Of a stretch of 64,000 nt of DNA, positions 9,148 to 55,957 are shown piece by piece (the stretch's first letter is position 1; every line of letters starts with the position of its first letter). The DNA is from Pegea sp. RAD2-039 (Eukaryota; Chordata; Thaliacea; Salpida; Salpidae). Made by a program: the position numbers and the translations under genes. The notes under the pieces are model-generated. The model was not told the DNA's origin. It saw only the letters and a program-made list of their open reading frames with translations, and searched no databases. The stretch is from positions 186,001 to 250,000 of the forward strand of contig JAQGEQ010000287.1 of NCBI GenBank assembly GCA_034620365.1, given 5' to 3'.

Positions 9148-9560
9148 AAACTTTAAGTTATATCAACTCCGACGACATGCATTATACCTTCATAAGCCCA
9201 TATCACCTGGTATTTTAGTTAGCATTTTTTTCTCGTTCCAGACAAATAATTCTTGGAACTAGCTGCCATCACACAATGTCATCTCAGAGTATCTTGAGCT
9301 GTTTAAACTGAAGTTGAATCCTATTGATGTTGTCAACACTGTCATTCCTAAACTATGACTCTTTTTTATATTATTAACATTCTATGTAACTATTTACTGT
9401 AATATTGTAAGCGGACTACTGAAATGCTATGTGTTCCATCTTTTTCTTTCTATATTTTTATCCTGGCTATACATAATAGGTATTATTATATACAATACTA
9501 TTTTGAGAATATGTGTAAGGAAAAGTTTTCTTTTCGAGCCCTTTTTTATGTCAAAAATGT
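9148..9560 (+). mobile_element. LINE (non-LTR retrotransposon) 3'-end fragment, copy A
   Basis: About 400 bp matches, with substitutions, the 3' ends of the copies at 42050-42490, 44880-45300 (minus) and 55700-55950. Shared blocks include the segment from 'tatatcaactc' through 'cacctggtattttagt', the 'attaacattctatgtaa' segment (9375-9392) and 'ctactgaaatgctatgtgttc'. It encodes the tail after reverse transcriptase (LR-rich, then an 'LELFKLKLN'-type segment) with frame breaks. A dead 5'-truncated copy. Confidence 0.75.
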
Positions 9561-23453: not shown

Positions 23454-26400
23454 TTAGGACAACTTTTCAAGTTTAGTAAGATACATTAGCACATTACCTG
23501 TTGAAGGTATACATACAAGAGAAGGACTCTTTGAGGAAGAGTTAGAAACAAATTCACTGCTACCACCTAATTTGATTGGCCCGTGTAAGTTTGAAACCTT
23601 TTTTAATTTCTTAATAGACGAACATCGATTTTTAACCAAAGGTATCATTTCATCATCAAAAAGACTTTTATGAACTTCAGTGAGAGGCGTGGAAGTTTTA
23701 TAACAAGGCAAGTTATTAAGTGCTTGATTAGTTGGATTCAAGCGGTTTTCTGATAAAACTGTACCTTTATTAGCTAAATGCATTCCAAAATCTTTAAATG
23801 TTTGAATGATATCATAAAAAACATTTACAATAAAAGTATTTGCTCCGAGTCGTTGACCAGTATATAGAATATAAAACGGATTAGCAGCTAAAGATTTGTG
23901 GACGAAGTCCCTGGTAAGTGCATCGCTCGGACAATTTTCAACTTTACACCTGAAAGCCAATCTTGGCAAGGAAGAAGCAGCCAAGGAGAGTTGTTTGAGA
24001 TCTTTGAGTTTCACTTTTTTTTCTTCACCATAGTCAACAAAATAAACAGTAGCAGTGCCTGACTGGACACCAACTATCTCAGCTCGGCACCACATTTGAT
24101 CTGATTTGGCGAGGCATGCTTGATGAATAGCAAAGCTCTTCAAAGGAAAATTTTTACTTTCCTCAGCACAAATACAGATTATCTTTTTTAATGTCGAAGC
24201 ATTTTTATCCAATTGAACAGTAAAATCCTGGAGACTTCTAAATGCAACCAGTTTGACTTTCTCTGGTGCATTATCAGAAATATCAGCTCCTTCAATACAT
24301 ACAAGTCTGGGAGAGTCAGTCACTTTACTTAGACTCAAACCGGTTTGGCCTTCTAACTTTAAACTAATTTGGCCCTTAACTTTGTCATAATTACTGTCAT
24401 TTGTTGGATTTGTCACGGTTACTTGCGGAATATTAAATTGATCTTGGCGATTTCTGATTATATACTCTTGAAGAGGAATAGAATATCGATCGATAAAAAC
24501 TTCTAACTTGATATATGATGAATTGGAGTCATTATCAGACATCACAGCATATATGAGAAGATTATCGCACGAACTCAAAACTCTCAACTCAGTAGTACTT
24601 ACATCTAAACCTTCTTCTAAGTTACATTTAGCTGCAAATGCACCTCTTGTGAATTTAGCTGGTAGTTGAGTTAGTGACGAAGTTGGTGCTACAGTCTTAC
24701 TACCGTAGTCGATATACAGCAATCTCAAACTGTCAGTGCTGTCTACGGACAAAACTTGAGCTCGGCGAAACTTTCTAGATGAAGAACAAAAACAAAGACA
24801 GAAATCACCTGGTTGAATAAGCCAATTTAAATGATTTTTTACAAATGATCTGTTGATATCATCCTCCATTTCTTCCAACTCTGGAATATTCCACAACAAT
24901 TGCAGATAGAAACAATTTGCTGAGTCCACATGAGATATATGAACTGGAAGTGAGTCATCAGTGTCTAGAACCATCGAGTCAACAGCTAGACCTTGCCAGA
25001 TTCTAACTGGCTGATTCTCACTTACGTTATCCACTACCCAAACCTGGTTCATCTCGTTGTAGCGAAGAAACCGTAGCTGCAACCTCTGATAACTTGACTG
25101 CTGAGAATGTGATTGAACGAAATTGATATCAGAAAGTTCAAAGTTTTCTTCAGTGGTGCATTTTATGGCGTAGCACGGAAATGTAGCTAAGTCATGATCA
25201 ATCAAGTACTTCATTTGATCTTTCTGTGTCTTAAACACAACGCCACTATCTAAATCTTGTACGACTACATAATCATCATTTTTTATTTCGCACACAATAG
25301 CTCGACACCATGAAGCTTGGCATCTTACACAAACTACTTGATCTTTATAAATACTCCCCAAGCAATAATCACAATATCTCAAAGCATCATAAAATCCTGT
25401 TAATTCTAACAACGAGCTTTCACGAGTTTTTTCTAAACTTTCTATATAAACGAAATAAAGAGAATTGAACTTAGCCTTCATTATTACACTAATAATCTCA
25501 TCTTGATGTACATTTTCACAAACATTCAACTGATACAAGAACCGAATTGCTGAAAAGTAATCTTGAGATACATGATTTCTCCAAAGAGAAAATCAAACCC
25601 TAAGCAACTTCTCAACTGCTTACAAGTATCGCTGGCATCCAGTCCAAGGTCTAGTAAGATAATACCATCATTTCTACCCACAACCAGCCCATTCATTTCT
25701 TGATTTTCAATAACTTTACATAAACTCCTAGAATATTTCGATCTTTGTAGTACTCTGTTCCAGAAGTCATCAGAAAATTGACAAGGAAACGCCATAGAAG
25801 GGATGTGCGTGAACTGATCTACACAATCAAATCTAAGATTACTAAACGAAGTTTCAATTACCATTCCATAGTCAACCAGTTGGACACAAACTTTATTCTC
25901 ACTCTTACCACAAATCGGGGACAATAGATGTCCTCTGTACCAAAACCCATCATCTCGAAGGACAACACAACAAATGGTTGTTGGTAATTGGTCATGATGA
26001 GGTTTTCCCAAAACTGCAGCTTGTAAGTCGTTCTGCAAACTTTTTATCTGATCTGAATGGCAGCGAAGTTGGCAATAAAAAAGCCCATGTAAAGCGTCTA
26101 CACTGCAAATATAAAAGTCATATTTCTTTTCAATATAAACGCGAGCTGGCAGCTGTAAGAAAGCGTATAGTTTAAACGGAATTTTTTCTAATTGCGGTAT
26201 TTCCGATGATTTCAACCTTTCAGATGGTCGTCGATAAAACTGAAGATCACAGATGAAACGAACTCCTAATGAATCACGGGTATACGAGAGGATACTACAG
26301 TAAGCATTAGAATTTAAGTTGAAATGTTCTTGGAGTAACTCTTTTGTACATATGTTTTCAGATGAGTTCAAGGACTTGATCAAGATACATCTAAACGCCG

Positions 26401-33859: not shown

Positions 33860-33882
33860 CATTTTCAGAATGACCTTCAGTT

Positions 33883-34265
33883 AGATACATTAGCACATTA
33901 CCTGCTGAAGGTTTACATACAAGAGAAGGACTCTTTGAGGAAGAGTTAGAAACAAATTCACTGCTACCATCTAATTTGATTGGCCCGTGCAAGTTTGAAA
34001 CCTTTGTTAATTTCTTAATAGACGAACATCGATTTTTAACCAAAGGTATCATTTCATCATCAAAAAGACTTTTATGAACTTCAGTGAGAGGCGTGGAAGT
34101 TTTATAACAAGGCAAGTTATTAAGTGCTTGATTAGTTGGATTCAAGCGGTTTTCTGATAAAACTGTACCTTTATTAGCTAAATGCATTCCAAAATCTTTA
34201 AATGTTTGAATGATATCATAAAAAACATTTACAATAAAAGTATTTTATCCGACTTGTTGACCAGT
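33883..34265 (-). pseudogene. Duplicated fragment of the multi-Tudor gene 3' exon
   Basis: These 383 bp match 23479-23861 of the Tudor gene without indels. The inner 350 bp show only about five differences; the right-hand 20 bp are more diverged. The fragment has an open frame of about 110 codons (33852-34187, MHLANKGTVL...) covering the C-terminal tail after the ninth Tudor repeat, ending in an unrelated GHSENEI extension. It lacks a Tudor core, a promoter and upstream exons, so it is a non-functional copy or part of a larger repeat. High identity indicates a recent event. Confidence 0.9.
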
Positions 34266-35164: not shown

Positions 35165-38100
35165 TCATTTTGTAATAGTACAATATTGTTGGTAAGACTT
35201 TAGAATAAGTCTATGAAGTTGCGAATAAATTAGTGGATTAATTGAACTTTTAATTGATAAAAGAACAATTACAGATATCACATTAATCTTATAACCACTG
35301 TAACTCATATAAGACATTATTATAATTGGCAACCAGCAAAGTAAATCTGTTGTTATAACGAAGAAAAATTTATCGTTCAACTTAAACAAGTTTTGTTCAT
35401 TTGGTTTTCCAGGAATCACATATCTCTTTTTACTGTATAATATTAAAGCATAAACAGCAAAAATAATCACAAAATAAAAAAGATTGAAAGTTATAACTAT
35501 AAAAGAGAAAGCAAAATGAGGAGTTAAACTGTTTGCATAAAGATTAGGAAAGCAAATAGAAGAAGTACTATAATATCCAACACTTGACTTTACTTTAATA
35601 TTTCTGAATGGAAAACGAAGTTTACCTTTGACAGAATTGAAATACCAGCTGTTTAAGCTAGCAAGTTCGAAATCATTGCTTTTTGAAATATATGAAATGT
35701 TTGAAAATAACAGAGAAATTAATTCAGTTCTTTGATAAAAGTATTTAAGTGTGGAAAAGTTAACTAATTTTGGTAAAAATAAATTTTTTCCAATATAATA
35801 ACTTGTAGCGAAACTAAGTTTAAACCAAACTGGAATCATAGCAAAAATAAAAGATAAGAAAAATAAAGCTATAGAAACAAAAAGAACAAGCTTATAATTT
35901 AAGAAAAAAGATTTGGAAGGACGAATTACGACAGATAATCGTACAATCGTGATTAGAAGTAATAAGTTCATTGATGTTTGTGATGAAATAAGAGTTAGTG
36001 CTCCAACAGCATTACAGGTAGAACTAGTTCTCCATTCAATATCGTGGTAACAATATTCACCTGAAAATTGGTGAGTTTTGACTCCAAGTATCAGTAGAAC
36101 AATACCCATAACATAATCTGATGCAGCTAGTTGACATAATAGTAAGGTAGTAATAAAATCAATTGAACTTTTATTTTCTATCTTTAATAACTTTTTGAGG
36201 TGTAATATAATTACTATTAGGTTAATTACTATTATTATAATAGAAAAAAACCAAATGAAAATGCGAAGCTGTCGACTTTCGACCATTTCAAGAAACGAAG
36301 AAATCTCTCTACCATTAGCCTCATCTGAACCATCTAAACAATCTCTTTTGCAATCAAAACGTTTTTCTCTGCTAATAAACAGAGGATTCTGATTCAAACA
36401 ATAAAAATGAGTCTCAGTTGAACAATTCATTTCATCTGAACCATCAGGACAGTCTATGTGTAAGTCACAACGTTTTTGTAAATCAATACTTTGAGTGACG
36501 TTTGTATGGCAATAGAACCGCCAAGAACAAATAAAATTCTTTATATTACAAAAGTCACTGAATTCTGTAAAACTGACGTTTCTTCCATCTTCAACACTTA
36601 GCATATATTCTTGATCTCCAACTTTGAGAATCTCAATTTGTTTTGCTTGATGGTTTTTTAATGTATTTTTCAATGTATAAAAATTTGAAGAAATATTTTC
36701 ATAATCCTCAACGAAATATAGAGAATAATTTGAACTTAAAAAGTAATCAGCTAAATCTAAATTGTCAATTTCCGAACGCAAGAAAGGTAGGCAATTTGGT
36801 ACAGCAAACTCTAGTAGATTTTTAATATCTCCCTTTTTAGATAAGGGCTCCACCAAGCTTTGTTTAAACGAATTATCAAAACATTTGGACGAACATTCAT
36901 CTTCCTTAAAAGGACATTCAACTGTTTGATCACAAAGTTCTCCAGAAATTTGTTGTATTGAATTATTCTCTGGTAATAAACATTTATATGTTCCGTTTAA
37001 TCTCAAAGAAAATAGCTCAGAAAAAACCTTAAAGTTGCAAAAGTGTTCATCATTTTCATTTACAAAATTCTTCTCCAAATTACAGATATCATTAAAATTT
37101 CTTTCGTTTGATTGACACCTCATTAAATCCACGCTTGGAAACATCATCTCACATAGTGGCTCTATTTTATTGTTCTTACATAAACATTCATCTGATAAAT
37201 CAGGACAGTCTATAAAACTATCACAAATTTGTAATTTTGAAATTATGGTTTTGTTATCCAAGCATCTTGAACAAACAAATTGATTTTGATTATTATAACA
37301 TTTATCTTCTTTTTCAGAGCAAATGGAAATATTATTTTTGATATAATCTTGAGGAACAGTTCTTAAGCGTTTATTAAAGCCCGAATTAGGTTGAGTTAAA
37401 TTACTAACCTCTACTTCACATTTGAAACCAAATATAAAATCTGAACAGTATTTTATTCCTCTTGTGAATATTTTTTCAATATTTTTTGAATCTATCATCG
37501 GAGAGAATAAAGAATATACTTTGTTGATTTCTTTGCAGCGTAGATAGTTGGTTAGATTGCACATTTCAATTTCATCACTTCCATCACCACAATTTATTAT
37601 TCCATCACATTTATACTTTGTTGGCAAACATCTACTCTTATCTAAACATCTAAACTCACCTTCAACACATTTATTAAATCTATAACTTTCATCTACTCCA
37701 GATTTACAATCCTTAATAGAGTTTCCCACCCACGATCGAGGAATACAACGTCCATCTCCACAACTAAATTCGGTTTCATTAAAACATGTAACCTGAGTTC
37801 TGTTCTCATCAGAACCATCCTGGCAGTCATTGAATCCATCATTGATACGATAACGAGGAATACATCGATGATTATCATGACAAGTAAACTCCGTTTGATT
37901 GTAACAATCTAAACTTGTAATCTCATCACTGTCACCAAAACAATCTGCTTTTCCATCCATCACCATATCTCGTAGAATACATCTTGATGAGTTGTCGTGA
38001 CAACGAAATTCTGAAGTGTTGAAGCATGATTTAAGAGGTTCTTCTTCATCACTTGTATCGAAGACATCCTGATCATAAATTTATTTTTCAAGAGCAAATA

Positions 38101-39301
38101 CTCAAAACAATTTTAGAATCAGTTAACTTAAAGATGGTAAACTCAATTTAAACTTGGCTTGTCAACAAGTTGGCTGTTAGTTATTGTAATTTGTTGTCTA
38201 CAGAATTAATTTGTTGCTTTGTTATTTGTTTTTGTATAAGTAATGAGCAAATAAATACAGCTAAGATAAAATCTCTCCTAACTGAATAGCAAGTTAATAA
38301 AATAATTTAGAATGCTAGATTCAAAGAATTTGGAAATTTTTGTGAGCTTACTTTTCCAAGTTTAATTAAAAAACATTATTTACAGGCTTTTTCATTTAAA
38401 ACGAGGAAAACTATTTAACAAAACATTAAAAATATAATCTATCTGGAATTTAAAATATGAAATTTAGAAACCTGATAAGAACAATCAAAATAGTTGTCTT
38501 TCACCGACTTCCTTGAAATGCATCTGTTTGATAGTTTACATTGAAACTCATCAGAATGACATGAAAGCTGAACATAACTCTGCGGAGGCTCACATTGAAG
38601 ATTGGCGTCAGCTCGTTTAGTACACCTTTCAAAATTATGAGAAATATTATTGTTACACTATCATTATTTAAGTTTAAAATATTAGGGAAAGTACTTAAAA
38701 GAATATTTTTCAATTTAAATAATTTCATAAACACTTCAAAATATTATTCAAATCATAAAAGCTTTCTTTGTTTGTTAAAATTAAGAGTTATGATTAAACT
38801 ATCATCCATTTTGTCGTAAGTTTTATTTCCTTTAAGTTTTTTTTCCATTATATATTTATTCAGAATTTGAAAATACTTTGCAGATTGCAAAATTAACTAT
38901 AAACATATTCATATACAAAGCTGTATCTTATCAGTTTGAACAACTGTTAAAAATCAGTTGACTTACCATATACATTTAATTTTTTAATTTTCATCGTTGT
39001 AACTCATAAAGCATATTTATAATTTTCAAAAGTATGGTTGGATGATAAAAATGATTTTTAAATTGAAATGAAAATAAAGCCCACCCTTTTACTTTAGTGA
39101 ACCACGTTTGGCAACTAACTTCTTCATCTGAACAATTAAATGTTTTTTCACAGTAATAAGCAACAGAAGATCTCTTTACACAAAGTTCATCTCCGACAGA
39201 AAATCCCCAGTCACTTATGGATTCAGCAGTTTGACATTTATGAAAACCATCTTCTGGCCTACAAGGTTCATTAGAATTGTATAATCTTGCACCCAAATAA
39301 T
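35165..39301 (-). CDS. LDLa-rich rhodopsin-type GPCR, paralog A (first exon not found)
   Basis: Large plasma-membrane receptor combining LDL-receptor class A modules and a rhodopsin-like 7TM domain, reminiscent of GRL101/relaxin-type receptors but with no leucine-rich repeats. Exons: 39085-39301, 38472-38625, 35165-38068, encoding about 1091 residues. The signal-peptide exon required by the phase-1 acceptor at 39301 was not found; it may lie beyond the LINE insertion. LDLa modules include CHSDEFQC, CFNTSEFRC, CYNQTEFTC, CFNETEFSC and CVEGEFRC, with DGSDE calcium-cage tails. A cysteine-rich spacer with further LDLa-like repeats (FIDCPDLSDEC, HIDCPDGSDEMNC) follows. The 7TM part starts near LRIFIWFFSIIIIV, has the extracellular-loop cysteines GEYCYHDIEW...TCNAVG, and ends with NPLIY. 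The DRY motif is replaced by VRL. Ligand unknown. Confidence 0.88.
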
Positions 39302-39950
39302 CTGTTAATGAAAAATGACTTTTGAGATTATTTTTCCTGAATCTTCTTTTTATCTAATATATTATTAAATAAATAGATAGTTTATTTTACTTTAAGCTTT
39401 CCAATTCTATAATATATCCTTAATAAGATTGGTTCCTTAATAATCACTTAGAGCCTAATTTTTATAAAGTTTCAAATCTCACATTCAAGAATTAATAATT
39501 ATTTTTTTATTACAAAAGTGATAAAAAACTGTTGGGTACATTTCTGAAACGTTAAGTTTTCTACCTTATTGATTTAGTTTGGCACTGGCTTACTTTTGTG
39601 TCAGTTTTGATTTCTAGAACTATATCTTTCAAACGAAAATACGAAATTTTACATACTAGAGATAAGATAATATAAATACTTTTTTAACTTGTTTATAATT
39701 AAACTCGTTTTATTAAAAGCTATAATTAGTTGAAATATAAATAACTTTAAAAAGAAAAATAAATTTAGAAGTAATTTCGAAAGTTTGTATATTTGTAATT
39801 CAGTTTATTTTATATTTGAAGTTTACTGTTCTTTAATCTAATAAAATTCTGGCAGCCATCTCGTATATAAAACTAACCAATTTTTAAAAGATTTTTACTA
39901 ATTTTATGTATTTATTTCATTAATCATAGTTCAACTATTTGTCAAGTAAC
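39302..39950. other. Presumed intron 1 DNA of receptor gene A, no exon recognised
   Basis: AT-rich sequence between exon 2 of receptor A and a LINE insertion. It was searched for a short signal-peptide exon ending in phase 1, like 51944-52001 of the paralog; none was found. Confidence 0.4.
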
Positions 39951-39954
39951 TCAC

Positions 39955-42495
39955 CGATAGCATGACAACTTACTCTGAACCGTGAGGACAGAGAAAACAA
40001 TGTTGTCATCTTTAATGTCTGTGCTACTAATAATGATGATGACATTAAATGTTTTAATAAAATATGTCCTCAAAGACTTAATTTTGTGGATGTTCCTAAG
40101 GCGTCTATGACCAGATTTGAACAAAGTATTGTATTTGTTGAAAGTGTCTTTTATGGAAAGTTGAGACAAATGCAAGTTTTTCGCCAAGCTGTATAAGTTA
40201 ACGCTTGACAAGAACTTCGATCGTATTAGAGTAGCACATGATATGTCTAAAGATAAACGCCTAGAAAATAAACGTCTTTCAAAAGAAGCGTATAACTGAA
40301 ATCAGAAGGAACAACCAACTGATTTCAAGAACAAAGTTCGAGATCCACCATAGGCCTTGAGAATTGTCAAAGTTGTTTTCAAAAAACGGAAGTGGCAAAT
40401 AATCACTGGTCCCACATCTTCTGTTTTTACATCCTCTCCGCACACAATTGTGAATACTATTCTTCCAGCACAAGATATCAGTTCAAAGAATCCCATTTTC
40501 CATTCTCACAAGTGCCAGAAGACAATTCTTCTATCACATCAAGTATGTTCTTCATCGCACGGTCGATTATTAACAAAATTTTTCAATTGAAAGCTCTTTT
40601 GCATACTCAAGATTTCACATTTGTTTTTTTACTGAAACTTGGTTGAAACCGTTTTATCCTGATTCTTTTCTGGTTGACGGTAATCTTTTTTGTGTTTTGC
40701 GTTGTGACAGACAGTATGACAGAGGCGGCGGTGTTTGCGTAATTTACAAGACATTGCTGAAACCCAAGATCTCCAGAATTCAGATCAATGTCATTAATTG
40801 TCCAGGGTTTGAGATTATTGCTTTTAATTTTCATTACTCAAAGTTCAAACTTTCTCTTTTTATATAAACCTACCTACCACCCTCTAAAACTAATGACGGG
40901 TTACTGTTAATGCCCTAGTGAAGGTTCTGAAGAGTGAGTCCTGAGTTATATATTTTGGGGGATTTTAATTTTAGTAAAACTGATTGGAATAACCTGAACA
41001 TTTATTAGAAAATCGTTCAACTTGGATAGCGACAGTACTAGTTCAGCCATTTTAATTCATGCCTTTCAAACTTCCTCGATGCCAATAATCTATCTCAGAT
41101 GGTACCTTTTTCAATTCGATTTAGTGGTAATACTTTGGATCTCCTTATAACATCAACCACTCAGAACATTATCTACGTTGATCAAAGAGAACATTTTACT
41201 ACGACTTGCGATCACACCATGACTGAATTCAAGCTCCATCAAACTTTTTTATGACCGTTAGAACTCCAAGCAAACATAATTTTTATCGTGGAAATTATGA
41301 TAGTATTAATGAGTTTTTATCAGGTGTGGAGTGGATTTCTGTTCTCAACTCTGCCAAAGACATCAATACTATCTATTCGAGGTTTACTAATATAATATAA
41401 AGAGTCAATTGAAAAACTCATATCTTTTTATAGAGTCAACAAAAACCACATTTGCCCAAATATTTAAGAAATTTACAACATCTAAAAAAACTCCTATACA
41501 CTTCAGTTCTGGACTCCCTTCTCTTTTTACTTTTTGTTAAAGACCTTATTAAAAGACTTGTAGCAGTAGGTTATGTCAGTGTGTTTGTGTATTCAGATAA
41601 CATCAAGCTATTATTTTACAATTCTTCAAAACTGCACTACACACTGTATAAAACTGGTCTATGAACTGACATCTCAAAATTAAACCCACAGTGTGAGCTT
41701 TTAACTTTCTTTCGTAAACCAGCAGCAGATTCCTTGAACCAATATTCCATCTATGGATTTATTATTCAACGAATATCTTCGGTCTTAGACCTTGGCATTA
41801 CTTTATCATCTGACTTTAAATGGCACAACTATGTTTCCAAAATTTTTACAAAATCGATCAATCTTGTTTACCTGATTGTAAAGACTTTTAATTCCAAGAA
41901 TCCATACTTCTTTTTTAAACTTTTCAAATTGTACGTACGTCCAATTATTGAATATAATGTCAGTCCATGAATGCCGTATCAAGTCGATGTTAGTAAAAAA
42001 AACTAAATCTGTTTAGGTAACATTAACGAGATTAGTTCTTTCTTTTCTATTAGTTCTTCCCTTAAGCTATATCAACTCAGACGAAGCACTTTACACTTTG
42101 ATAAGCACATATTATCTTAATCAGAGCATTTTTTTCTCATACCGTTTATCCAATAATTGAAAACAACTGCCATCAGACACTGACATGTTAGAATCTCTTG
42201 TGCTGTTCAAGCAGAAGTTGAAACGTTATAATATTTCCAACGATTATCATTTCTAAACTGTGATTATTTTTCTCTTTTTTACGTTATTAACATTCTATGT
42301 AATTATTCACTGTTACATTTTATGAGGACTACTGAAATGCTATGTGTTCTCTTGCTTTCTATATTTTCATCATAGTTATATATAATTGGTTTCATTATAT
42401 ATAATATTATTTGTGAAAATGTTATTTAACGAGAGGTGATCTATTAAGGCCCCTATTTCACGCTTATTCAAATAGATAAATAAAAATTGATGTTT
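39955..42495 (+). mobile_element. LINE (non-LTR retrotransposon), copy B, decayed near-full copy
   Basis: Most complete copy of the local jockey/CR1-like LINE. It carries, in order: an ORF1-like segment (DRENNVVIFNV near 39990, RIRVAHDMSKDKRLENKR near 40225); an apurinic-endonuclease part (FTETWLKPF, DRGGGVCVIYK, and LGDFNFSKTDW near 40960, GNTLDLLIT near 41130); a reverse transcriptase C-terminal part (LLFLLFVKDLIK, with a degenerate YSDN where YADD is expected); and the shared 3' region. Many stops and frameshifts are present, and the central reverse transcriptase is largely deleted. It is non-autonomous and dead. It lies on the strand opposite to receptor gene A, probably inside its first intron. 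Confidence 0.85.
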
Positions 42496-44879
42496 TGAAC
42501 TAACCTTTGGTACACACAAATCTTGATGTGATTATAATATAGAAACAAATGAATGAAAAAAATCTCATTTTGTTCTATTTTTATCTTTTTAAAATTTTTA
42601 GAATTGAAACTATAAAACTCTAGAACAAAGAAATTTAATTCTTATAATAAGTCACAGTAAAAATACTTTAGTATAACCATGTTTAGTCATTTTTCTTTAA
42701 CTGTACATTTAATGAAATAAGATTATTTATTAGAAATCAATCGATATATGTAACAAACACTTTTTAAAAGTAGGGAGCTATTACAAAAGTTATTACAAGT
42801 AGAACTATTAAATTTAAGTGATTTTTGAAAATATTTTTAATTAAGGAGTTGTTTACCAAGTCTAAACTAAACGGTTAAAATACACAGTTTCTATAAAACA
42901 GTTTTTAATATTGATAAAAACCCACGCATTAGTTTATATTTACCAAGCATAAAAGTAGTATTCAAAAGTTAAAAAGGTAATAAACAAAGGGTTATCAATT
43001 GAATTAAACTTTGTATATGTATACAAAGTATACTATCATAAAAATAAAAATACTTTTAATTATAAACAATTCAATATTATCTAAATTCTGGCCATAAAAC
43101 TACTCCAAAAAATACTTAAAAAACATAAAAAACCTAACGATCTTACTCCGTCTAACCTAATAATGAGCTAAAATTCAATAATGAAATCAAATAGTAAAAA
43201 TATTACATGAATTAAGCTCACTGATTAATGCGTGGACGCTATACTTGTTTGATATATTAGTATCTGACTGACGGTCTAAACAAAGTAGTCATTTATACAT
43301 CAAATAATTTATTATCTATCTCTTAGTTCTTATTTTCGAACCTAATCGTTCAAAATCAAAATTAACGAAAATAGATATTTAACAGAAAAATCAATTTGAA
43401 AAGTAATCTATTTACTTTAATTAACTCATGAAAATGTATTGGAAATTAGATTTTGCTGTCTTAAAATTTGTTTAATATTTTTAATTTTGTTGATTAATTA
43501 TCAGGTTTCAATACTTACGTTTTGATATACACCTACTTTAATTTATAATTTAGTTTTCAAAAATACTAGTTTGTAATCGCAGTTCTTTCATTTAGAGCAT
43601 AAATCAGAAGACCCAAGTTTAAAATAAATTATTTATAGATACCAGCCTTTGCAAACTATATGAAGATCGTCTGTAAAAGTTTTTTGAATAAAAGGAATTA
43701 TGAAACTCATGGTTAAAATCTATTATATGAAACCTTTATCAAATTAGAAGATAAACTTTACATTTGAGTAGATAGGAAAGAGGACCAACTTATGAAATAT
43801 TTACATCATAATCCTTTAAAAAAGTTTTCTTTTAACTGCAAAAAATTAACTGACCTAAACTGCTTAAAAGAACTTTCTTAGCAACAAAAAGTTTGCAGAT
43901 TTCTTTAGAGAGAATGCTAAAATATGTACAATTTTATAATCATCAGCAAACCATCAATACTATTTTTCTCAAATTTTTAATGCAGTCACTATTGCAGTTA
44001 AAGTTACTTGCTATAAGTTTGCTTGTCTGCAAAAATATTCTAATAAATAAGACGATGTCACACCTAGCAGTCAATAATTTATTCATTTTAGGCTCATAAA
44101 AAATAGTGTAGTTGAACATGAAATGACTATGACCAAAAATGAAAACGATACAAAATATTCTTGACATTGTAAGCAACTTTGTAAAAATAGCTAATACTTA
44201 TTAGTTTGTTGGGATTTTTAGCTAATACATCTTGAATGAAAATTTCTGAATTTAGAAAAAATTTTTATACCAAAATATTTCTAAGATATACTTATCAAAA
44301 GCTATCTTTGTATAAATATCATTAAAGCGAATTTTGATAATCAGGTCTTTGTCCAAATGAAACGCATATAGGAAATATTCAAATCTGTCAACCTTATTCA
44401 AAGAAAATGTATAGTAGTCTTCAACTTAATAACAAACTAAACTGCTTGTGTATTTATGAAAATTTCAAAATAAATTGTTAAACTTTAAAAACATGGATTT
44501 TTTAATTACATTTCTTCCTAGCTTTATCTTCTGAACAGTCTTTAGATCATAGTTTCAACAGCTTCAGCTTTTCATTTTCAAAATGAAACAAGTAAACTGG
44601 TAAAAAAACTTGAAACTATTTTTACACTGAGTAGAAATGACAATTTGTTTTTAAATTTTTTAACATCAAATTAAAATTTTGTTAAAGAAACGTTTTTTAA
44701 ATACGGTAGCCTAAAAATTATCCTTGAAAATAGTCCAAAAATTGAATTTAAAGACTCAATTGGTTGATACAAATAACTGAAGCAGCACAGTTTTAACAAG
44801 TTAAAAAGAAAATATTTGTTTCAAGTATTCTCTTATGATTATCTGAACAATGTTAGAATAGATATTAATCGAAATTTAA
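42496..44879. other. AT-rich DNA between LINE copies, no gene recognised
   Basis: No family-like frames. A GTTAGTTC donor-like site on the minus strand near 42510 resembles the donor after the signal peptide of the paralogous receptor gene, but no ATG with a hydrophobic stretch precedes it. Confidence 0.4.
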
Positions 44880-46450
44880 ATTCATTTATCTATGACAATG
44901 AATGCGAAGGATGGTGCCTGAATACGGTACCTCCCGCTACCAAACATTCTCAGAAATAATACCTATTCAATTAAAAATATAGAAAGCAAAAAATGTAACA
45001 CGTCGTATTTTTGTAGTCCTCCAAACACATAACAGTAAATAATTCCATACAATGTAAATAGTATAATAAAGAGAAAAAATCACGGCTTAGAAATAACAAT
45101 GTTGGCAATATTAAAACGGTTCAGCATGAACTGCATGAGTTATTCTGACATGACAATGTCTGATGGCAACTAGTTCGATGTACTAATTGTGCGGTATGAT
45201 GAAAAAATGCTCCGATTAATGTACCAGGTGATATGGGCTTATTAAGATGTAATGTGTGTCATCTGAGTTGGTATAACTTGAGGAAAGGACTAATAGAAAA
45301 GAAATCATCGAATTAAGGTCAATTGAATTGTGATTAATTAAAACAATAATAATTATGTCGTATTTAAGCCGTCGAATTTCCTAAGTATCTAAATTTAAGA
45401 AGCTGAGACGATGTTCATAATTATCGTATTTAATATTAAGTTTCCTACATATCAATCTCGTAAATGTTGCCTGAACAGATTCGATTTTTTGACATCACCA
45501 ACTTGATATGACACATATGCACTGACATTGTATTAAAGAATTGAACGTATGTATTCGAAAAGATTGATATGTAATGTAATTTTTAAAGATTGATAATAAA
45601 CCATGAATACTTAGAATTAAAGGTCTTTATAATACGGTAGACAAGGTTGATTGATTTTCCAAAGATTTTGGAAACATAATTGCGCCATTTAAAGTCAGAT
45701 GATAGAGTAATGCCAAGGTCTAGGACCGACGATATTCCTGAAATAATAAATCCATTGACAGAGTATTGGTTTAAGGAATTTGTAGCTAAGGAACCCTGAA
45801 GAACACCACTGGTGACTTGACTGGGAGTAGATAAAGATCTTTCAACACGAGTTTGTTGGGTTCTTCCTGATAAGTAATCTTCGATCCGCTTTAAGATAAA
45901 TCTGCTGATTTTTAACTTTTGTAAAACAATATTGAACTTGTTGTGTGGGACAGAATCAAGCTCTTTAGCAAAATCGAGATATATGATGTCACAGGGAGTG
46001 TTACTTTCGTAATGGGCTGTAAGCTCATTAAGAAAAGTGAGATGTTGAGTCAGGGAAGATCTCCGTTTTACAAAGCCATATTGGACATCAGATATTAGAT
46101 AATGCTCCATCAAAAGACTGGTCATATTATTGTGAATGATATGTTCTTGAGTTCTGCAGATAACTGAAGTCAGCGAAACTGGTCTGTAGTTAAGTGCGGT
46201 GTTTCTGGGACCCTTTTTATTAATTGGAGTAAGAATAGCTTTCTTCCAAATTTGTGGAAGAAGTAGTTATAAACCTTATGAAAACCTTAATTAATTAATT
46301 TTAGTAATATTGCGTAAAACGGTGAAAGTAGCTCTTTGACATTTTTAAGAGTGACATCATTGTGATTTGCTTTAAATTTATAAAGTTTTTGATAAAAATT
46401 CAACGTCAAAATAATGATGGCAAATGTTTTCAACAAAGCTTGACAAATAG
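44880..46450 (-). mobile_element. LINE copy C, reverse transcriptase remnant
   Basis: Minus-strand copy with recognisable reverse transcriptase: LPQIWKKAILTPI and NYRPVSLTSVI (near 46180-46260), VQYGFVKRRSSLTQHLTFLN, IIYLDFAKELDSVPHNK and SGVLQGS. It then jumps to NQYSVNGFIISGISSVLDLG, so the block with the catalytic YADD residues is deleted. The 3' region to 44880 matches copies A, B and D. The 180-codon frame at 45583-46125 is the best-preserved part. Not functional. Confidence 0.88.
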
Positions 46451-46832
46451 CATTATGTAACTGACATCATGTAATCATGACTATACAACTTTATCATTCA
46501 TCTTAAAAGCTCTTACAAACTTTTGCTGCAATAATTCAGATGCAGCAAAACGTCACTTCTACTTAAGATTCGGCAAAAAAAGTCGCACTTAGAAAATTTA
46601 TTTGATAAAATCTTAATAATTTTAACCCTTTTACAAATTACGGCGAAACAATACCTTTGCTGAATATTGTCAAGGTTACGGTAGGTGATGGAACGAAAAC
46701 ATCCCTCCAACCAACGAAAGCGATCCCTGGAGCCAATCTCAACTGCAAACGATACTAGACTTGAAGCCGGTATCTGTGGTTTTCCGTGTTGTGTCATACA
46801 CTAAGGAGCAAAGTTGGAGAGACCTCTCCAGA

Positions 46833-47070
46833 TATTATGTAGATCCAGCTGTTACCTATGCAGCAGGATTCCACTATCCACGCCAACAAGGCTATGCAGC
46901 GGAGCAGACAAACTGACGCAGCCATGTCCAGCGGGCGTCACAAGAACTGACAGAACGACACTGAGTACATTGACGAACTACCTACGACGATTCAACTCCA
47001 GATTTAAATTAAGAGTTTTGTGTCTCCTAAAACTGTAGTTACTCACCGAATTCATTGGGCTATTCTACCC
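46833..47070 (+). repeat. LTR-like dispersed repeat, copy 1
   Basis: Shares several blocks with 63511-63735: 'gcagcaggattc', 'caacaaggctatgcagcgga', 'caactccagatttaaatt', 'agttttgtgtctcct' and 'gggctattctaccc'. The layout (a T-rich U5-like part, then a CCCGA end) resembles the end of an LTR, suggesting a solo LTR or fragment. No matching internal region or tRNA primer site was identified next to it, so the class is an inference. Confidence 0.6.
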
Positions 47071-47386
47071 GAAAGTAAGTCCTTAGTTAAAATATTCTAA
47101 AGTAGTTTTATATAGGGCTTAAATAGTGCCATAAGTAGCACGATTCATTTGCTGTTCGCTATCATAAATTAGGTTTAAGACATACAATTATAAAGTGGGT
47201 AAAAATGTTTAATATTAAATCACTTAAACAACCATATACTTTCTGAAATAGACTGTAAATACGTCTAACCCTTAAATCTTTCTCAAGTTTTAGTTTTTGA
47301 AAGCTATCATACAAACGAAACAGTTTTTACAGTAACCGTAAAAATATATAATTCATAAACAACTGTTTTTGTTCAGTTTTTTTATC

Positions 47387-50300
47387 TTATTTTCGTCTTA
47401 TTGTGGATACTTTTCTGTAGAGTATAACCACACTTTTATCAAGACGTGAATAAATGATAGGATTAATTGCACTGTTAACAGGTAGAAGGATAATCACAGA
47501 TATTGGTACAATTATTCCGGTGATCTCAAATTGATTGTAACTCATGAAAGACATAACAATGATTGGCAACCAGCAAAGCATATCAGTTAGAATAATATAA
47601 AACACTCTCCGTTTAAGCTTGCCAATCTGACCTCTATTTGATCTTTGTCTGTTAAATTTTTTGAAACTTTGTTTTGTGCGATAAAATATTAAACAGTAAG
47701 TTGCAAAAATGAATGAGAGCGAAATCGCGTTGTAAGTTATCATGATTAAGGAAAATGCAAAATGAGAATTTGAAGTATTCGTATAAAGATCTGGAAAGCA
47801 AACAGCAGAAGTACTATAAAACCCAAAGATTGATTTCACTTCAATATTTTTATGTGGAAAATAACGTTTACCTTCAGCAGAATTAAAAAACCATTTCTTA
47901 AAAATATCTATGTTAAAATTAGTAGGAAGGTTCAAATTATATGACAAATTTGCATACGCCTTAGGAATTAATTCACTTCTGTAAAAATACTTCTCAAGTG
48001 TTGAAAAATTCACTGATCGTGAATTTATATAAGGTGTCGGCTCGATATAATATTTTTCAGCAAAGTCAGCTTCAAACCAAACAGGAATCATCGCAAATAA
48101 TAAAGATAAAGTCCAAAGGAGCAAAGAAAAAAATAAAATAATTTTCATGTTTAACTGCTTTGATTTAAAAGGATATATAAGAAGATACAATCTCAGGCTA
48201 GTGATTATAAGTAACACATTCATTGATGCTTGTGACGAAAAAACAGTTAGTACACCAACAACATTACATCCAACACTAGATCTCCATTCAAGGTCATGAT
48301 AACAGTATTCACCTGAAAATTCTTGCGATTTGATACCAAGTATCAGTAAAACAACACCCATTATAAGATCAGAAAAAGCAAGTTGGGTTAACAGCATAGT
48401 GTTAATATAACTTATAGAACTCTTAGTTTCAGTTTTACAGAGTTTCGTCTGATGCATTCGAATAACTATCAGATTAACAGCTATTGTAATTATCGAGCTA
48501 AACCATACAAAAATTCGAAGATATTTATCTTTAATCATTTCGAATGGAGATGAAAACTCATCAGTAGGACATTCATCAGATCCATCATTGCAATCTAAGT
48601 GACCATCTAAATGTTTACTTGATTCAATAAATCTTGGATATCCTTGCCAACAATAGAAATGAGTTTGAGTAGAACAAGACATCTCATCTGAGGCATCTGA
48701 GCAATCTATGTTGAAATCACAGAGTTTTCTAAGATCGATACTTTCAATAACATTTGAGTCACAGTAAAATCTCCAAGAACAGGCATACTTCTGTACGTTG
48801 CAAAAGTCACCGAGCTTTGTTAAAGTAAAATTTTTTTGATTTTCAATTGTAGTTCGCTTTTGTAGGATTAAATTGTCCCTACTGTTTCTGAGATAGTAAA
48901 TCGTTTTTTCATTTGATAGGTTATTAAGATTTTTACTTGAAACACTGAAACTTGTTGGAGAAACCAACATACTTGGAAAGGCTTGATCATTTTCATTTAA
49001 AATCATTAAGATATTCATAAAAAAATTGGTACGGCTGGCATTTGTTTGAATAAATGAGAAACATGTACTCATGTAAAAAGCAACATTATTGTCTAACAAA
49101 AGCGTTAGAGGGCTCTTGGAAACCATACTTATAATTGGATCAAAGCATTGTGAAGAACATTCATCATCTTTCAATTCACATTCAACAACTTTATTACACA
49201 AGACCCCAAAAACGTTTACTTCAGTCTTTGCACTTCTGTTATAAGTAGAACATCTATATCGCTGTGGTCTGTGAGTATCATTTGAATTTGACTCCGTTAA
49301 CAAGTTCAAAACTTTGTAATTACAAAAGTGTTCATCAATACCGTTCTGTAAATCTTGTTTTTGATCACAGATGATATTAACACTTTTTTGTGTTGAGTCA
49401 TTAAACAAAGATGTGGTTGGGTACATGATTTTACAAAGTGACTCCAACTTGTTTGAACACAAACATTCATCAGAAAGGTCAGGACAATCAATAAAGTTAT
49501 CACAAATTTGTGATTTAGAAATTATGGTTTTGTTATCCAAACATCTTGAACAAGTAAACTGATTTTGTTTATTATAACAATCATCCTCTTTTCCAGAGCA
49601 AATGGAAATATTGTTGGTTATATACTGCTGAGGAACTGTTCTTAGTTGTTTCACGATCTTATATAATGAGTTTGTGATATTGACAAAGCATTTAAAACCA
49701 AATATAAGATCCGAACAGGATTTTATGCCACTAACAGGGAACTCTTGCAACTGGTTTTGATTTATAAGTGGTTTCAACATCTTAAAACTACCTCCGGAAC
49801 ATCTCATGTAGTTGCTTGAATTGCACATTTCAATTTCATCACTTCCATCACCACAATTTATTATTCCATCACATTTATACTTTGTTGGCAAACATCTACT
49901 TTTATCTAAACATCTAAACTCACCTTCAACACATTTATTAAATCTATAACTTTCATCTACTCCAGATTTACAATCATTAATAGAGTTTCCCACCCACGAT
50001 CGAGGAATACAACGTCCATCTCCACAACTAAATTCGGTTTCATTAAAACATGTAACCTGAGTTCTGTTCTCATCAGAACCATCCTGGCAGTCATTGAATC
50101 CATCATTGATACGATAACGAGGAATACATCGATGATTATCATGACAAGTAAACTCCGTTTGATTGTAACAATCTAAACTTGTAATCTCATCACTGTCACC
50201 AAAACAATCTGCTTTTCCATCCATCACCATATCTCGTAGAATACATCTTGATGAGTTGTCGTGACAACGAAATTCTGAAGTGTTGAAGCATGATTTAAGA

Positions 50301-52001
50301 GGTTCTTCTTCATCACTTGTATCGATGATCTTCTAATATCAAAAGTCTAATTAAAATCTAGTTTAGAGTTCGGAAGCTGTTATAATAACTAAATAGTGAC
50401 AAATAGCTTTATATATAATAAAAATGTAACAGCTGAATTTGGTTTGATTCAATTTATCTAATTATTTGGGATATAAGCTTATATCATCAATGCACTTTTC
50501 GGTTTAAGAAAAACATTTTTTAAGCAGTAAGATTCAAAAGATATCTTTGAAGGTTTATTGCATAGATTTAATTAAAGTAACCAGTAATAATTAGATACTC
50601 TAATGATTACTCTAATTAAAGATACTCTTATTAAAGATACAAAGATATAGGAAATCATGCTCTGTGAAGCAGAACAATTCTTATACTGATTTTTAAGATG
50701 ATATCAAACTTTTTTGATAATCTTAGTATAAAACAAATTCTAATTAAAAGAGAAGTTTTGTTTGTAGATGGTGCTGATGGCTGCCATGCTTATAACAGAG
50801 CGATACAAATAACTGAAAGTCAAAAACAAAAATCCTTTCGGAAAAAGTCATAAGTTTGCAACCGTCGATAACAGTGTATTCTGTAAGTAACAGAGGAACT
50901 TCTTGATAGAATTATTCGAATTAGCTTGTTTATTATATCTTTATTTTGCTAAACAGAATTTTATATCTTCTGATTATTAATATTAAGTAAGATACATTTT
51001 TAGTCAACATGAAGTTTTTGTTTTAGTGATGTTAATTCAAAAATGAAATATTTATTGTTGAAATTAGTTGGAAAGAAATTGTTCTAACTTTTCTATGATA
51101 AATAACATTTGTCGAACCTCACTAAACGGGTCACTTGAGCAGTCTGTGATAACTCCATTTCTGACCAAACTTCTTGGAATACACTTTTTTGATATTTTAC
51201 ATTGAAATTCATCAGGATGACAACGAAGCAAAGAGGCAGTGTATGGAGGTGCACAATAAGAAGAGATTGAATCTCGTTCAACACACCTAAAGAGTTACTT
51301 AAAAGCTCATTGTCGATAACTAAATTCTAAATTAAGAAAACTATTGAAGTAAGTTAATGAAAATGTTCATCAAGTTGATACCTAAGTAAAGTTTATATAT
51401 TCCTGCTTTTTAACAAAATTAATTGTAATATTTATTTAATTTTTGTATATTAACAACACTCATTAAAAACTAAAGAGCTTAGCATCATTTATACTAATTT
51501 AATTACTTAGCTTATTTGACAAATTTGTTTTATTTTAAACTTCTTTTTAAAATTTAAATGCTAAATTTTCATAAACTAAAAAGACTCACAATTTACTTTT
51601 AGTTATGAAAACAGTGCAGTCGATTTCATTGTCAGTACAATTAAATTTTGTGCCACAAATTAATTGACCACTATATTTATCAAAACACATTCCATTATTT
51701 CCCATATTCGGTAATGTTGGTTCCAATTTCATAAAATTGGAGTTCTTACAAGTAACAAAGCCATCTTCTGGTCTACAAGGTTGATTTACGTCAGGAAACA
51801 ATAAGTCTTCTTGGAAAAAATTCAAATTTTAATTATAAAGTTGAAAAAAGTTTTCGAATAAAAACTATCTTTGTTAGAAATACGGATAAAAGAGGTATGG
51901 TTGCTATTTTATGAGTTTGTTAAGATTTTTTTTTGAAACTAACCTTCTGCATCAACAATTAATACTGTAAACAAAACCAGGATAAAAAAACATCTTCCCA
52001 T
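47387..52001 (-). CDS. LDLa-rich rhodopsin-type GPCR, paralog B, complete
   Basis: Complete paralog of the receptor at 35165-39301. Exons: 51944-52001, 51590-51806, 51118-51286, 47387-50332; 3390 nt, encoding 1129 residues. Exon 1 encodes a signal peptide (MGRCFFILVLFTVLIVDA). The N-terminal cysteine module CRPEDGF is followed by LDLa modules (CHPDEFQC, CFNTSEFRC, CYNQTEFTC, CFNETEFSC, CVEGEFRC), a cysteine-rich spacer with FIDCPDLSDEC and NIDCSDASDEMSC, then 7TM from about residue 755. The 7TM part has GEYCYHDLEWR...GCNVVG, LRL in place of DRY, and NPIIY in TM7. Exon 2 has exactly the same 217-nt length as in paralog A. The first LDLa block of exon 4 is almost identical to paralog A, while the spacer and 7TM part are clearly diverged. 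Probably an orphan peptide-type receptor; the ligand and G protein are unknown. Confidence 0.92.
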
Positions 52002-55429: not shown

Positions 55430-55957
55430 TATCAATCTTTTCAAATTGTACGTACGTCCAATTCTTGAATACAGTATTAGTGCATGGATGCCATATCAAA
55501 ACAATTGAGTCTGTTTAGACAACATTTACGAGATTAGTATGCAGGAAACTTAATATTAAATACGATAACTATAAACATCGTCTTAGTTTCTTTAATTTAG
55601 ATACTCTGGAAATTCTACGAGTTAAACACGACTTAATTCTTATTTTAAAAATTATCCACAATTCAATTGACCTTCAGTTTGATGACTTCTTTTCCATAAG
55701 TCCTTCTTCAATCTATAACAGCTCAGACGACACACATTACATCTTAATAAGCTCATATCACCTGGTACATTGGTCAGAGCAATTCTTTCTCATACCACAC
55801 AATTAGTAGATGAAACCAGCTGCCAACAGACATTGTCACGTCGAAGTCGCTCGCGTTGTTCATAAAGAAGTTATGAGTTATTTGTGAGAATGTGTGTTAG
55901 CGAGAGATACTCTCTTCAGGCACCCTCATTCGCATTTATTGTAATAAATAAATATGC
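55430..55957 (+). mobile_element. LINE copy D, 3' fragment with intact tail
   Basis: Begins 'caaattgtacgtacgtccaattcttgaata', the same as 41928 onward in copy B, then includes the conserved post-RT region and the best-preserved 3' end. That end has 'tgtgagaatgtgtgttagc', the stem 'gagagatactctc', 'aggcaccctcattcgcatttattg' and an 'aataaataaat' tail. Frame breaks and an internal deletion show it is inactive. Confidence 0.8.

Follow-up and report, generated by a model that had tools for sequence, protein, structure and literature searches.

Two adjoining receptor genes in the window, by which we mean the whole 64,000-nucleotide stretch of DNA analysed (part of contig C265), raise the question of how one part of a coding exon can be nearly identical between paralogs that are strongly diverged elsewhere. 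Both genes, here called A and B, lie on the minus strand and have a common layout, in which short upstream exons lead to one large last exon that encodes, in order, arrayed LDLa modules, a variable ectodomain part of greater length and a seven-transmembrane (7TM) domain of the rhodopsin type. Pfam reported LDLa (PF00057) in A, B and their relative L058, and the 7TM domain (PF00001) in B and L058; the 7TM of gene A, for which Pfam gave no PF00001 report, is alignable to that of B at 65% nucleotide identity. Last-exon starts (38068 in A, 50329 in B) were placed by eye from splice sites. Three upstream exons are readable by eye in gene B, and exon 1 of gene A was not found. The features referred to below are as follows.

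35165..38068, minus strand: large last exon of gene A, with LDLa block, diverged ectodomain and 7TM (open frame 35165-38080)
47387..50329, minus strand: large last exon of gene B, with LDLa block, diverged ectodomain and 7TM (open frame 47387-50332; PF00057 and PF00001)
38439..38657, minus strand: approximate upstream exon (exon 3) of gene A, with a partial LDLa module (open frame only; diverged from B)
51064..51294, minus strand: approximate upstream exon (exon 3) of gene B (open frame only; diverged from A)
37557..38061, minus strand: gene A copy of the tract, with four LDLa modules, in the 5' part of the last exon (PF00057)
49821..50325, minus strand: tract copy in gene B, with four LDLa modules (PF00057)
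37178..37365, minus strand: second conserved LDLa stretch of gene A (85% to 49457-49644)
49457..49644, minus strand: second conserved LDLa stretch of gene B (85% to 37178-37365)

The two tract copies align without gaps and mismatch at 2 of 505 positions (plus strand: 37637 C / 49901 T and 37712 C / 49976 A), one synonymous on the coding strand (AAG/AAA, Lys) and one nonsynonymous (AAG Lys / AAT Asn). Read in translation, the tract encodes four entire LDLa modules together with the final residues (DTSDE) of another that the intron interrupts. It begins at about the eighth base of the large last exon in gene A and the fifth in gene B, and it ends directly past the fourth LDLa module. In blocks of 60 positions, the upstream intron never matches at more than 33 (the nearest three blocks give 26, 22 and 32), a similarity that unrelated AT-rich DNA also reaches in this sequence; past the 3' edge, identity falls at once to 23 of 60 ectodomain columns. 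Within the same exon, nucleotide identity outside the tract is 59% in the ectodomain and 65% in the 7TM. Exon 3 of A and B matches at 83.6% over 55 bp, or 65.6% over 125 bp under looser scoring. The next-best DNA matches to the tract in its own genome (105.7 Mb, 387 contigs) reach at most 79%. An earlier note, made from the sequence, had described a near-identical tract with synonymous sites included, four LDLa modules, abrupt ends, and a strongly diverged intron and 7TM, and this description is borne out. It had also set the 5' edge a few bases inside exon 4, which is right as to the distance, while the exon number fits B and could not be matched in A, where exon 1 is missing; what it had taken for a diverged downstream spacer is the remaining ectodomain of the same exon.

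We show that synonymous divergence is far from even along the two genes: dS is 0.011 for the tract but 1.71 for the remainder of the ectodomain and 1.13 for the 7TM (synonymous changes: 1.0/93.3 in the tract vs 137.2/236.5 in the 7TM; Fisher P = 5.6 × 10−26). A tract dS this low relative to the rest of the same exon argues against a recent whole-gene duplication and for gene conversion, which is the order of preference the earlier note had proposed; a uniformly low dS along both genes, named there as a finding that would speak against it, is not what we see. The GENECONV-type permutation test that it had suggested (2386 polymorphic sites) gave a fragment score of 364.8, whereas none of 10,000 shuffles scored above 52.6. 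Weak scores in this test mean little, since it presumes even rates and the control pairs were nominally significant at a level that rate variation alone may reach (A/L042: score 30, P = 0.026; B/L041: score 34, P = 0.018). In the second LDLa stretch, sliding dS between A and B is about 1, and a recent conversion there was rejected on this ground. GC3 does not rise in the tract (0.19-0.20 vs 0.19-0.28 elsewhere in A and B); such a rise, produced by GC-biased repair, is a usual mark of a conversion tract without being an obligatory one, and its absence is a point against conversion. A sister relation of A and B is not rejected by the 7TM tree (p-AU 0.494), which comes with long-branch warnings, and its topology therefore adds nothing for this pair. 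Evidence on the direction of transfer consists of the two differences only, and the paralogs are variable at the nonsynonymous site.

No COX1 match turned up in the assembly. A cytosolic uL4 fragment scores up to 232 bits with the best solved chains, vs 206 with Drosophila entries and 186 with a C. elegans entry, which makes a non-ecdysozoan animal likely; the small size, low GC and short introns might bring a rotifer to mind. The genome contains at least 106 matches to the gene B 7TM and at least 75 to the tract protein, many of them fragments. About 42 of the 7TM matches appear to form an amplified clade, whose membership is defined by 49-53% 7TM identity to gene B and which sits mostly on small contigs (C63, C46, C172, C174, C217, C308, C343, C374, C376, C377 and others); its copies are often spaced about 10-18 kb apart on a common contig, many with long open frames. 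The other members are found singly on C81, C12, C38, C84 and C39, as pairs on C47 and on C265, and as a trio on C1, and broken copies and distant relatives are present on further contigs. Four loci with broken or partial frames (L045, L046, L049, L060) were left out of the alignment.

The same LDLa block is homogenised in both other linked groups found outside the amplified clade. On C1, three genes (L058, L059, L063) are clustered in about 25 kb, with one in inverted orientation, and share an ungapped match of 582-642 bp at 97.0-98.7%, with tract dS of 0.05-0.09 and saturated synonymous sites in the 7TM. This match starts at the exon-4 acceptor or a few bases from it, and exon 3 of L058 and L059 is not homogenised. 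A further patch of 185 bp, apart from the first, is 99.5% identical between L058 and L063 and missing from L059. On C47, L041 and L043 are 316 kb apart on opposite strands and have a dS of 0.049 in the tract vs 0.44 in the 7TM; as read, near-identity starts some 35-60 bases past the exon start. The trees conflict for this pair, with L041+L043 joined in the tract tree (95/95) and L042+L043 in the 7TM tree (100/100). Residual tract differences in the C1 and C47 groups amount to 1.3-3.3%.

Across the family, tract similarity follows linkage and not 7TM age in a 13-member set whose pairs are non-independent. This set was drawn from the 20 aligned receptors, with one representative for the eight aligned members of the amplified clade, and among its 78 pairs the five that share a contig have the five lowest tract dS values (0.011, 0.049, 0.054, 0.089 and 0.089). 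The next two, 0.11 and 0.12, pair L042 on another contig with L043 and L041, followed by a gap up to 0.555. Where 7TM dS is at least 0.8 (73 pairs), the four same-contig pairs have a tract dS of at most 0.09 and the other 69 of at least 0.55. The tract differs by 23-38% of nucleotides between the three linked groups and is thus not frozen at the DNA level. Between L042 and L043 there also seems to be a mosaic: the tract, the ectodomain part that follows it and the 7TM all have dS of 0.08-0.12, but the value is 0.31 directly ahead of the 7TM and 0.78 in the middle ectodomain. This hypervariable middle ectodomain (alignment columns 400-610) has a dS of 0.78-1.76 among L041, L042 and L043 vs about 0.05-0.6 elsewhere, and seems to have been left out of conversion.

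Taken together, the tract very probably arose by ectopic (non-allelic) gene conversion from one to the other of two old, diverged paralogs 12.3 kb apart, most likely as the latest of repeated conversions. Gene conversion requires fairly high similarity. As L041-L044, which lie on other contigs and have comparable 7TM divergence, are only 74-77% similar to A and B in the tract, we infer that the LDLa island has been renewed repeatedly since the duplication and not by a single event. Mechanistically, the 5' part of the last exon, with its four LDLa modules, would be the longest stretch in which linked paralogs can still pair. Breaks there would be repaired from the neighbouring copy, homogenising the LDLa block, and exchange would halt where the intron can no longer be aligned and, at the other end, where the ectodomain has diverged, so that the edges might be set by homology. 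The flanks could then go on diverging while the island is renewed.

A rather less likely, albeit serious, alternative is that selection drives the homogenisation, i.e., that a conversion event occurred and the block was kept because a common ligand or partner binds via the LDLa modules while the 7TM and outer ectodomain diversify. That an identical module block is homogenised in all three linked groups seen, and that this block is more alike than the remaining ectodomain in family pairs outside the amplified clade, is what such selection would leave behind; yet the highest homology by itself predicts the identical location. Homogenisation in L041/L043 also extends to alignment columns 281-396 and to a transmembrane patch (columns 765-840), which speaks against a restriction to the binding modules. 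The amplified clade argues in the same direction, as its first LDLa has the highest dN/dS (0.78 vs 0.27 in the 7TM; 8 members). Against a general role of conversion in the family, linked copies of this clade show no block homogenisation: among the 28 pairs of these eight members, 27 have a tract that is more diverged than the 7TM, including L048/L064, which are 16 kb apart (tract 93.1%, 7TM 98.3%), and L047/L064 is the exception (tract 96.7 vs 7TM 96.5).

The very high identity, seen in a single assembly, could also have been produced if collapse or chimeric joining had put one tract sequence into both genes. We consider such an artefact improbable, because the copies differ at two positions, and because the residual differences in two further groups and the one inverted copy would not be expected from collapse. 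Conversion templated by a spliced cDNA, in place of the neighbouring gene, might account for 5' edges that coincide with the exon start in A/B and the C1 pairs. However, exon 3 is not homogenised in A/B or in L058/L059, and a diverged intron would stop a DNA template at the same place, making a cDNA donor very improbable. It is scarcely credible that purifying selection on the protein or the DNA held the block identical without any exchange: the LDLa cysteines and acidic motifs are indeed conserved across 18 aligned receptors, but synonymous sites are near-identical as well (1/93), and the unlinked pairs with old 7TMs have far higher tract dS. The synonymous data largely refute this explanation, barring a cluster-specific constraint at the DNA level. 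Finally, a recent whole-gene or segmental duplication followed by fast change elsewhere has virtually no chance of being correct and is refuted by dS along the genes, since no alignment of the upstream intron is possible and synonymous sites in the rest of the genes have reached, or nearly reached, saturation, even though A and B adjoin in the same orientation.

Domain-restricted conversion is already known from clustered protocadherins, and the A/B tract, read as gene conversion, is a new case of it. In fugu, regional gene conversion is described with raised GC3 (54-69% vs 38-45%; PMC1852091), and the work of Noonan et al. 2004 on regional conversion in protocadherins is described in a later review (PMC3966226). 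The protocadherins resemble the present receptors in being clustered paralogs in which one ectodomain part is about 99% identical in nucleotides and another about 60-80%, with a sharp boundary, and in having homogenised blocks that differ between subclusters (PMC1852091, PMC3966226). In contrast, the protocadherin block described there is the 3' part of the ectodomain, its GC3 is raised, and the subclusters contain several to many genes, whereas in the present family the homogenised part is the LDLa block at the 5' side of a 7TM receptor exon, without raised GC3, in groups of two to three with one member inverted. RHCE/RHD and other patchwork pairs are likewise presented as having some exons homogenised and others not (PMC3966226). 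Unlike our receptors, whose unconverted parts are at or near synonymous saturation, the RH genes are highly similar overall (PMC3966226). A literature survey on LDLa/GPCR expansion or conversion, of partial coverage and at the level of titles and abstract openings, yielded no report on the present receptor family.

As to the kind of receptor, the best solved relatives of the gene B 7TM are relaxin receptor 1, the top match, and glycoprotein-hormone receptors. As in the relaxin receptors RXFP1/2, an N-terminal LDLa part precedes a class A 7TM. Unlike RXFP1/2, the present genes have at least four LDLa modules in one exon with the 7TM, and Pfam reported no leucine-rich repeat family in the big exon of A, B or L058 up to an E-value of 1. 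Of the traits of type C LGRs (relaxin receptor/GRL101-like), the LDLa before a class A 7TM is therefore present, and leucine-rich repeats were not reported in the big exon. GRL101 is another LDLa-bearing rhodopsin-type receptor.

These groups add a clear animal example, seen more than once, to the cases of domain-restricted concerted evolution, in this instance among seven-transmembrane receptors, and they warn that ectodomains of this sort can mislead gene trees and orthology assignments. As the three linked groups differ in age and share a genome, they could help to separate homology-limited from selection-driven conversion. More speculatively, and judging from sequence, the LDLa block might serve as an exchangeable unit that is repeatedly overwritten between linked receptors, even when these are inverted or 316 kb apart. 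Each group would then keep a common binding module while the signalling 7TM and the hypervariable middle ectodomain drift far apart, perhaps giving one ligand module several outputs.

The window holds a second near-identical pair, 23472-23861 and 33876-34265 (97.2% over 390 bp), of which only these two copies were found in the genome. The first forms the 3' end of a gene that encodes a Tudor domain (open frame 23454-25592, minus strand), and the second is a lone fragment of that gene, 10.4 kb away and adjoining gene A. We also noticed a putative open frame at 45583-46266 (minus strand) that appears, by reading, to be reverse-transcriptase-like, as well as dispersed repeats at 9153-9514, 42062-42422, 45143-45495 and 55493-55845 with about 74-85% identity. 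Lying between and around the receptor genes, this frame and these repeats are probably LINE remnants.
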